A DNA stretch of 31,132 nucleotides from Candidatus Hydrogenedentota bacterium (GTDB lineage: Bacteria; Hydrogenedentota; Hydrogenedentia; Hydrogenedentales; CAITNO01), in NCBI GenBank assembly GCA_029554925.1, contig JAKPUV010000206.1, positions 1-31,132 of the forward strand. Direction: 5' to 3'. The notes under the pieces are model-generated. The model was not told where the DNA came from and ran no database searches. It was given only the letters and a program-made list of their open reading frames with translations. The number at the start of each line of letters is the position of its first letter. Within the stretch, counting starts at the first letter, position 1. Position numbers and translations under genes: made by a program. This document shows, piece by piece, positions 10,034 to 31,132 of this stretch.

Positions 10034-10102
10034 ACCACGGAAAACACAGAGTACACGGAACGGAAGAGGGGTTCTTTTCGTCTACTCCGTGTGTTCCGTG
10101 GT
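10034..10102. repeat. 69-bp dispersed hairpin element, copy A
   Basis: An imperfect inverted repeat. The left end ACCACGGAAAACACAG (10034 on) pairs with the right end CCGTGTGTTCCGTGGT (to 10102), with about 18 of 21 outer positions matching. It starts 12 bp beyond the stop of the GxxExxY gene and is exactly the same length as copies C and D. It may act as a terminator-like structure, but no T-tract follows. Confidence 0.8.
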
Positions 10103-29931: not shown

Positions 29932-30032
29932 CCCGCCGCAAAGGAAGGAAGACGGTCCCACGCGCAAGAGATTGCCGCGTCGGCCGGGGCGGCCTCCTGC
30001 TAATGAAGTAAGTCGGCGAGAACGCCCGCAAT

Positions 30033-30105
30033 GTAGACGCGCCATCTTGGCGCGTTCTTGGGGCTTTTCGTTGACCCGAAGAACGCGCCAAGATGGCGCG
30101 TCTAC
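30033..30105. repeat. BIME-like double palindrome headed by GTAG
   Basis: A perfect 27-bp inverted repeat, 30033-30059 against 30079-30105, with a 19-bp spacer. Each arm begins (read inward) with GTAG and contains its own mini-hairpin CGCGCCA-TCT-TGGCGCG. This is the arrangement of two REP sequences in opposite orientation. A GTAG head followed by a hairpin is the hallmark of REPs used by RAYT (REP-associated tyrosine transposase) proteins. No RAYT gene is in the window. Confidence 0.8.
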
Positions 30106-30190
30106 GTTTCCGGCCCTCCCGCAGCTCTCGCTTCATAGGCAGAATCCCCGCCCACGGCGGTCAGGGGCTCGCAAAGACGCGGAAACACAC

Positions 30191-30218
30191 GTCATGGCGA
30201 GCGAAGCGAAGCCATCTC
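30191..30218. repeat. GCGAGCGAAGCGAA-type dispersed repeat
   Basis: A hairpin with ATGGC (30194-30198) against GCCAT (30211-30215) around GAGCGAAGCGAA, followed by CTC. Closely similar sequences are scattered in the genomes of many unrelated bacteria. Only one copy is in this window. Confidence 0.55.
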
Positions 30219-30252
30219 GTGCCCGCAAGGGTCCGGAGTCCCCGCGCCCGGC

Positions 30253-30335: not shown

Positions 30336-31132
30336 ATGTTTGAGCAGGTCTTCAGGAACATTGACGACATCCTCCGCAAGGAGGCCGGGTGCACCACGGA
30401 GCTCGACTACACCGAGCAGAGCTCCTGGCTCCTCTTTCTAAAATACCTCGACGAGCTCGAGCGCGACCGCGCCCTCGAGGCCGAGCTGGAGGGGCGCGCA
30501 TACACCCGCATCCTGGACGGGCCCTACCGCTGGACCGAATGGGCCGCCCCGAAGCGCCCCGACGGGACCCCGGACCACGACCGCGCCCTCACGGGCGACG
30601 ACCTGCGCGATTTCGTCAACGGGAAGCTCTTCCCCCATCTCGAGGGGTTCAAGCGGCGCGCCGCCGGGCCCGACACCCTCGAATACAAGATCGGCGAGAT
30701 TTTCGGCGAGATCAAAAACAGGATCCAGAGCGGCTACAACCTCCGCGAGATCATAGACCACATGGACGGCCTCCGCTTCCGCTCCCAGACCGAGAAGCAC
30801 GAGCTGTCCCACCTCTACGAGGCCAAGATACGCAACATGGGCAACGCCGGGCGCAACGGCGGCGAATACTACACCCCGCGCCCCCTCATCCGCGCCATGG
30901 TCCGCGTCACCGCCCCCCGCATCGGCGAGACCATCTACGACGGCGCCGTCGGCTCCGCCGGCTTCCTCTGCGAGGCCCACGACTACCTGCGCCACGGCGG
31001 CCGCTTCCCCTCCCCCCCTGGGAACGCCAATCTCCCGATTGGCAGTCTTAATGGGGCCAATCAGGAGATTGGCGTTCCCAGGGAGAAGGCCGGGGCGGAG
31101 GCCGCCGGCCTCACCACCGGCGAACTGGAAAT
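30336..31132 (+). CDS. hsdM: Type I restriction-modification system methyltransferase subunit HsdM (3' partial)
   Basis: The frame from ATG 30336 is open to the right edge (265 codons seen; full length would be about 490-520). HsdM methylates adenine as part of the M2S or R2M2S complex. The N-terminal helical domain is clear: MFEQVFRNIDDILRKEAG, then ELDYTEQSSWLLFLKYLDE near 22-40 and TGDDLRDFVNGKLFPHL near 87. The pre-motif region EAKIRNMGNAGRNGGEYYTPRPL near 165-187 precedes SAM motif I, YDGAVGSAGFL at 201-211. NPPF motif IV would lie beyond the edge. After HDYLRHGGRF (about 215-224) comes an in-frame palindromic insertion (31016-31083) before the conserved LTTGELE. If the frame stays open downstream, the enzyme carries an extra 25-35 residue surface loop. 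HsdS and HsdR are expected to follow. Confidence 0.9.
   Translation, partial: MFEQVFRNIDDILRKEAGCTTELDYTEQSSWLLFLKYLDELERDRALEAELEGRAYTRILDGPYRWTEWAAPKRPDGTPDHDRALTGDDLRDFVNGKLFPHLEGFKRRAAGPDTLEYKIGEIFGEIKNRIQSGYNLREIIDHMDGLRFRSQTEKHELSHLYEAKIRNMGNAGRNGGEYYTPRPLIRAMVRVTAPRIGETIYDGAVGSAGFLCEAHDYLRHGGRFPSPPGNANLPIGSLNGANQEIGVPREKAGAEAAGLTTGELE
31016..31083. repeat. Palindromic element inserted in frame within hsdM
   Basis: A perfect 20-bp outer inverted repeat (31016-31035 against 31064-31083), then one mismatch and 7 more pairs (31037-31043 against 31056-31062), with a 12-nt loop. Each arm also folds alone as GCCAATC-NNNN-GATTGGC. It encodes about 22 residues (GNANLPIGSLNGANQEIGVP) without a stop. 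The design is the same as the double palindrome at 30033-30105, with different sequence. Confidence 0.85.

Follow-up and report, generated by a model that had tools for sequence, protein, structure and literature searches.

REPs are usually regarded as extragenic elements, and RAYTs are single-strand DNA HUH transposases whose benefit to their hosts is, to our knowledge, unclear. In the portion of the REP literature available here, GTAG is given as the characteristic REP foot, and REPs are described, single or dimeric, inside uvrA, dnaE2 and other genes of Opitutus terrae, Thauera, Rickettsia conorii and others (PMC3733652). For TnpA-REP (RAYT) subclass 2.4, the corresponding portion of its description places REPs inside the transposase genes themselves, with the frame intact (PMC6006769). 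Palindromes lying in frame in protein genes are also known as the Rickettsia palindromic elements (according to the same part of PMC3733652), and palindromic coding repeats occur across distant microbes as PARCELs (PMC2996958, in part).

In this work, we analysed a window of 31,132 nt that constitutes an entire contig (G000:C341:1-31132) of a MAG of 4.74 Mb in 1350 contigs (completeness 97.7, contamination 9.26%), and that ends within a gene containing a palindrome. We propose, with a probability of roughly 0.85, that this palindrome belongs to a REPIN family, probably dispersed by a RAYT, and that it lies in frame in a tolerant HsdM linker of a type I restriction-modification (R-M) operon.

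The gene in question, hsdM (30336..31132, plus strand), encodes the methylase subunit of the R-M system, and was recognized by its open frame, by Pfam matches to HsdM_N (35.1 bits) and N6_Mtase (54.1 bits), and by the PADLOC model MTase_I (E 3e-64); the NPPF motif and the accompanying hsdS were seen in relatives only. The contig end truncates the gene at 31132, and the remainder of hsdM was not found in the source assembly. The palindrome occupies 31016..31083 (68 bp, neither strand assigned; CCCTGGGAACGCCAATCTCCCGATTGGC-AGTCTTAATGGG-GCCAATCAGGAGATTGGCGTTCCCAGGG), with 58 of its 68 positions being self-complementary, and the segment 31006-31095 folded as RNA reaches -63.8 kcal/mol (z = -7.15; none of 200 shuffles equally stable). 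Its anatomy is that of a REPIN, namely two inverted REP hairpins with a spacer between them, an assignment based on the self-complementarity, the fold and the copies in relatives. The first REP (31020..31043, plus strand; pattern match 31020-31035) reads directly as a foot GGGAAC at 31020-31025 followed by the hairpin GCCAAT-CTCCCG-ATTGGC at 31026-31043, and the second (31056..31079, minus strand; pattern match 31064-31079) as a hairpin at 31056-31073 with its foot at 31074-31079, which appears as GTTCCC on the plus strand; the inverted-repeat search places a spacer of 12 bp between them (31044..31055). Both arms therefore consist of GGGAAC and a hairpin GCCAAT-(6 nt)-ATTGGC, and the palindrome is REPIN-like by structure, with another foot than GTAG. 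A search of Rfam returned microRNA models only, all 12 below their gathering scores, which were taken as chance matches to a long hairpin.

Read in the hsdM frame, the element encodes PGNANLPIG-SLNG-ANQEIGVPR, and the frame 30336-31130 continues across it, with no stop or frameshift seen between the palindrome and 31132. An earlier note on this DNA had described a near-perfect 68-bp palindrome in an open hsdM frame, and its coordinates proved exact; the Pro/Gly/Asn-rich stretch that it attributed to the palindrome is indeed read there (PGNANLPIG-x-ANQEIGVPR), and its placement of the insertion in the HsdM linker that leads from the (D/E)YL helix to LTT is supported, the insert being a dispersed repeat in frame. 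The note also proposed that the hairpin may slow translation of the hsdM mRNA. From the parallel that it drew with Rickettsia palindromic elements, the mode of in-frame insertion stands and the kind of element does not: the anatomy is that of a REPIN, a RAYT adjoins in relatives, and no CGTC tag occurs in or adjoining the palindrome.

The contig ends only 49 bp past the palindrome, and the hsdR gene of the same genome was found on a separate contig, C958, beginning directly after the hsdR REP site (residue 314 of P0018). The protein P0018 carries an in-frame REP at that site and is 99% identical to the C958 product over 521 aa, an identity that makes its origin from the same species as the window genome probable. 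Thus, each of the two contig breaks in the hsd operon of the window genome coincides with a REP or adjoins one. In a MAG so fragmented, with 9.26% contamination, a palindrome near a contig end could have been misjoined to hsdM at the repeat; this is, nonetheless, very improbable, as the last 49 bp continue hsdM in frame (LTTGELE) and other assemblies display the same-site insert in full-length hsdM (G002, P0009, P0010 and a Victivallales MAG).

The recurrence of the insert was assessed in the linker that runs from the (D/E)YL helix to the TFYGKEK motif, for which 130 protein identifiers were checked (4 were not HsdM) and 120 proteins were parsed. Linkers of 16-23 aa were found in 112 of these and linkers of 39-116 aa in the other 8; REP peptides are present in all 8 linkers longer than 38 aa, 7 of which were retrieved by searching for the insert itself. 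In the untargeted set, composed of 120 of the 7999 HsdM listed (114 parsed), two proteins carry REPs (P0010 and P0052). Long HsdM loops of unrelated DNA at the same site, an outcome that the earlier note had named as refuting, were not found, the long-loop proteins seen here carrying this repeat or a variant of it. The insert lies at the same place in P0008, P0009, P0010, P0011, P0014, P0015, P0017 and P0052, all of which then continue through NPPF to a normal C-terminus, and a single arm is also present at a second site, around residue 73, in P0011, P0014, P0015 and P0017. Arm number at the linker ranges from 2 to at least 6 among insert-bearing proteins, the upper bound being P0010 with at least six arms in series, and is 0 in the insert-free ones. 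Among 68 Hydrogenedentes genomes, five encode an HsdM of the window's subfamily that reaches the site (G000, G002, G012, G040 and G048), and two of these, G000 and G002, have the insert.

The best PDB relative, 5ybb_A, aligns without gaps across the site, which fits a linker, and from the alignment the site is likely a surface loop; an AlphaFold2 model of P0009, for which 36 rows of close homologues were aligned, had too low a confidence to be used (mean pLDDT 38.6, pTM 0.25). A linker between two conserved helices would accept extra residues, and the palindrome would supply it with a Pro/Gly/Asn-rich turn peptide. The frame PGNANLPIG/ANQEIGVPR predominates among in-frame copies, although the protein searches were aimed at that very peptide, and mixed or other frames occur in P0016, P0018, P0052, L173, L215 and the RAYTs of L219 and L298; the preference for this frame may thus be regarded as a tendency only.

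Insert-bearing hsdM genes are under purifying selection. Outside the insert, dN/dS was 0.186 for G000-G002 (226 codons), 0.195 for G000-Victivallales (226 codons) and 0.166 for G002-Victivallales (480 codons), and pairs with one insert-free partner gave 0.115-0.219, plus one value of 0.505. The latter, from G000-G048, is an outlier; the other ten of the 11 usable values, every one from a pair with at least one insert-bearing gene and obtained after leaving out a pair in which L230 was wrongly trimmed, span 0.104-0.219. Such retention by selection would be in line with a functional enzyme.

Further, copies of the element were searched for across genomes. The earlier note had named the absence of other copies in the genome as a refuting outcome. 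Taken strictly, the window's own assembly comes near to it, with weak copies only, whereas relatives provide copies in large numbers: the search of G000 yielded no close copy of the full palindrome, the best match lying on C1044 (75% over 72 bp), with a further weak relative on C673 (87% over 31 bp). Arm matches with at most one mismatch (forward + reverse) amounted to 2+1 in G000, two of the three being the window's own, and to 28+35 in G002, 14+12 in G007, 11+7 in G015, 8+7 in G001 and 5+6 in G012; each of the six further genomes, out of 12 searched, had 0 or 1, and the reversed pattern, used as a control, had 0 matches in all 12. Dispersal in tens of copies per genome is therefore a feature of relatives (G002, G007 and G015) and not of the fragmented G000, from whose assembly copies may be absent because it breaks at REPs. 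Matches at E <= 1e-3 were obtained in 11 of 60 genomes, the window's own included, eight of them in its GTDB family; in the protein records of G002, the group is given as Candidatus Hydrogenedentes. A scan for GGGAACGCCAATCTCCYGAT in one genome per species returned at least 119 stretches, and among the matches listed the record titles name Acidobacteria, Planctomycetota, Lentisphaerae, Victivallales, Kiritimatiellales, Hydrogenedentes, BRC1/Sumerlaeota, Armatimonadota, Verrucomicrobia, Calditrichaeota and others. Since these stretches stand under many phylum names, the arm sequence is widespread.

In the relatives inspected, most copies outside the G002 hsd operon lie near gene ends or are intergenic, as judged by inspection of open frames with homology tested for part of them. 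In G002, 18 of the 63 arm matches fall in one 5.1-kb stretch that holds the operon, two of the 18 being upstream of hsdM, and REP groups lie in coding frames in 6 of 7 cases within the operon versus 1 of 32 elsewhere (Fisher 1.5e-5), these clustering and coding-frame counts being descriptive only, given that tandem duplication breaks independence and the 32 others were not each homology-tested. The genes of this operon are ordered hsdM (C10:29109-30842), hsdS, a RAYT gene and hsdR, with Pfam support. In hsdM, in-frame copies occupy both the linker that holds the insert in the window and the C-terminus; the RAYT has them at the N-terminus, between the HUH and Tyr motifs, and near the C-terminus; and hsdR between FQTFM and YYFGGYP. 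In G015, too, hsdR carries a copy at this last position, although a diverged one. A similar arrangement is displayed by a Victivallales MAG (CAILUI010000392.1), with the order hsdM-hsdS-RAYT-rhuM-hsdR. Its REPs occupy the same hsdM linker and the same hsdR site, as well as two places in the RAYT, namely the N-terminus and the stretch that separates the HUH motif from the Tyr motif.

The presence of the same sites in Hydrogenedentes and Victivallales allows for a different history, in which one decorated hsd-RAYT operon spread horizontally and the window's insert was inherited, with no need for an insertion hotspot; this history is compatible with the REPIN identity of the element, and we consider it quite possible, although short of probable. 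The dS of hsdM is 0.62 for G002-Victivallales and 0.64 for G002-G012, two Hydrogenedentes of one family, and because the two values are so close, the similarity between the Victivallales and G002 genes points to horizontal transfer. The few copies elsewhere in G000 also suit inheritance of the insert. The frames of the arms bear on both sides: P0052, whose linker holds three dimers, has their first arm in another reading frame (GTPISRSA...ATRESGDP), as has the Kiritimatiellales protein of L173 at the same HsdM site (PGTPISRLA...ANLEIGVPG), and in both the difference concerns the first arm only, yet deriving such an arm from the window's insertion would require paired indels. Therefore, the HsdM linker has probably been struck more than once. 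The spread of arm number, from 2 to at least 6, likewise argues against a single inherited insertion, though tandem duplication could explain it.

Returning to the reading of a RAYT-dispersed REPIN in a tolerant linker, the neighbour gene in relatives has the characters of a RAYT: a Y1_Tnp domain, the HUH and catalytic Tyr motifs, and a match to the NCBIfam model NF047646 (RAYT), which scored above its cut-off for all 4 sequences submitted. In the alignment, the operon RAYTs keep NHVH and the Tyr motif YIxxNP. They also carry REPs between the HuH and Y motifs with the frame kept, the trait of TnpA-REP subclass 2.4, with Y motifs reading YIHGNP, YIHHNP, YIHQNP, YIRQNP and similar, as compared with YIxNNP in that subclass. 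Against this reading, no RAYT is assembled beside hsdM on the window's contig, where the gene is truncated at 31132, and copies of the element are few in the window genome. In the mechanism that we infer from these sequences, the RAYT, a Y1 HUH single-strand DNA transposase, would disperse REPs, often near its own gene; and only in-frame insertions in tolerant linkers would persist in the hsd genes, out-of-frame ones being lost. In relatives, elements do pile up around the operon RAYT, both within its own gene and in hsdM and hsdR, and the copies seen in these genes keep the frame. Insertion by the RAYT, loss of out-of-frame insertions, local preference, loop tolerance and a working enzyme would all be parts of this account.

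The association of RAYTs with hsd genes was also examined among 192 loci recovered through the REP: hsd matches were found in 3 of 9 loci with a RAYT match versus 3 of 183 without (Fisher p 0.0013), figures to be read knowing that the loci are not independent, that one of the three is the already known Victivallales contig, and that one RAYT match spans 46 aa. A search of 387 genomes gave RAYT matches in 79, and 20 loci from among the strongest matches, belonging to 19 of these genomes, were taken; three of the 20 are directly in an hsd operon (L331, L333 and L335), a fourth (L337) is preceded at a distance of about 2.5 kb by an hsdM, other frames intervening, and the remaining 16 showed no hsd neighbour with the queries used, several being on short contigs and diverged hsd genes being able to escape. 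In G052 and G053, the REP variant of the RAYTs lies mostly within RAYT genes (4 of 4 matches and 5 of 6, respectively), and this variant does not show a genome-wide co-variation of RAYT with REP copy number.

RAYTs within hsd operons were found in MAGs of several phyla, with diverse arrangements. In G397 and G359, from the 387-genome sample and of the Victivallales MAG's phylum, the order is hsdM-hsdS-RAYT with a plain hsdM, and another REP (GNATLRSG/ANREIGDP) is read in frame within the RAYT, and also at the hsdS 5' end, where the extension of the frame may precede the true start. A third genome of that sample, G317, shows the order hsdM-RAYT-hsdS, with genes of another subfamily. In L230, a MAG of the Deltaproteobacteria, the order is hsdM-RAYT-rhuM and the hsdM linker is plain; the RAYT frame (L230:4031-5239) has a tail resembling an HsdS C-terminus (LKKSLLHQAFEGEL), with no HsdS between this frame and hsdM, which looks like a replacement of hsdS by the RAYT. 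In L252, a MAG of the Acidiferrales, a fragment of hsdM without the site (L252:3-641, also lacking the methylase core) lies upstream of hsdS, a RAYT and a long hsdR frame without insert. Considering that the hsdM genes of G397, G359 and L230 are plain and the L252 hsdR is insert-free despite the RAYT, the presence of a RAYT alone does not predict the hsdM insert, and insertion is not forced. Moreover, G012 has copies of the element in its genome, yet its hsdM is without insert.

Other RAYTs of this kind carry different repeats. In L142:6994-7764 and L143:3058-3894, the N- and C-termini are encoded by a distinct REP (PGNADVPVG...ADEDVGAPR) that is almost absent elsewhere there, and the RAYTs of L299, L335, L340 and L347 have further in-frame repeats mid-gene or at their ends (such as GTADRLVG/AEPTLGAPS, AEQTLGGP, EPGNATLPSC and GNAGLRTG), which suggests that in-frame repeats are a common habit in this RAYT group.

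A more far-reaching proposal, which we put forward tentatively and with less confidence than the single horizontal spread discussed above, is that the RAYT-bearing type I R-M operon constitutes a self-decorating mobile module that crosses phyla, in which the RAYT would seed in-frame REPs in its own gene and in hsdM, hsdS and hsdR, linkers would lengthen stepwise, and the R-M genes would secure the persistence of the RAYT. In its boldest form, the RAYT and its REPs would also modulate restriction.

The element is not confined to hsd and RAYT genes. In-frame copies, often of one arm, were found in a G007 protein with ArgC domains and in an Mrp-type antiporter subunit of G002, and further in-frame copies in MiaB and a second protein of a Planctomycetota MAG, in a DUF1054 protein (Armatimonadota) and in a C25-peptidase protein (Calditrichaeota); protein database searches added ThyX, NuoM, a lipoprotein-like protein and four more RAYTs. 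Some of these peptide matches have weak E-values (ThyX 0.098 and 0.49, NuoM 1.0, P0006 6.7), and were accepted with the peptide being plain in the sequence. This distribution weighs on the idea that the inserts are kept for a function, with the RAYT binding REP hairpins in hsd DNA or mRNA, tuning or switching restriction and regulating the operon. The location of RAYTs inside hsd operons in several phyla, the occurrence of REPs in both hsdM and hsdR as well as at 5' ends of hsdS frames, and the very stable hairpin would agree with such a role; it is unlikely, however, as several RAYT operons have no inserts in hsdM or hsdR and the same element occurs in the unrelated ArgC, ThyX, NuoM and MiaB.

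Other repeats were noticed in the window and its relatives. Just upstream of hsdM, at 30016-30122, lies a second large inverted repeat whose 48-nt arms hold GTAGACGCGCCATCTTGGCGCG; this sequence begins with a GTAG-type foot, and the pattern was found in only 4 of 350 loci, all covering the window contig. Another inverted repeat, at 10034-10102, has 27-nt arms (ACCACGGAAAACACAGAG...CTCCGTGTGTTCCGTGGT) and is perhaps another dispersed repeat. The sequence CACGTCATGGCGAGCGAAGCGAAGCCATCTCGT occurs both upstream of hsdM (window ~30187-30220) and on contig C673 of G000 (L004 ~221-253). In G001, of the same genus, a different REP-like family, GGGATCGCCAAGCTCC, is present on many contigs (24 matches, including four inverted pairs 80 bp apart).

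Under the reading of a RAYT-dispersed REPIN, RAYT elements would write peptides into R-M subunits that are still under selection. The HsdM linker, with 0 to at least 6 arms and the first arm in two frames, offers a natural series useful for the study of the mode of REP insertion, its locality to the RAYT, the tolerance of proteins to palindrome-coded linkers, and RAYT persistence. It also carries a warning: peptides of this kind, when met in annotated proteins, derive from repeats, and assemblies of short reads break there.

With regard to known systems, the window's element resembles REPINs and REPs with their RAYTs (TnpA-REP) in its two inverted REPs, its dispersal in relatives and the NF047646 RAYT nearby there, and differs in its foot, GGGAAC, and in the location of the RAYT inside a type I R-M operon. 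PARCELs, as characterized in part of PMC2996958, are instead 25-residue amphipathic tandem repeats, often in membrane-targeted proteins, and the Rickettsia palindromic elements, as summarized in part of PMC3733652, are CGTC-tagged or longer, have no known dedicated transposase and reside in Rickettsia. Neither 'restriction' nor 'hsd' occurs in the main text of PMC3733652 or of PMC6006769, and no RAYT-bearing type I R-M operon with in-frame REPs in several subunits appeared in the titles and abstract openings of the open-licence papers that the literature searches listed, one of these listings giving 10 of 70 papers. The intragenic REPs treated in the available part of PMC3733652 belong to another REP family, other hosts and other genes, whereas those of the window's type are gathered in a transposase-bearing operon and recur at one hsdM and one hsdR position; compared with subclass 2.4, as presented in part of PMC6006769, REPs are found here in adjacent hsd genes too, and at both termini of the RAYT. 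In-frame REPs within genes, RAYT genes included, are thus already known, and what appears to be new is their setting in an R-M operon and their recurrence at fixed positions of its subunits.
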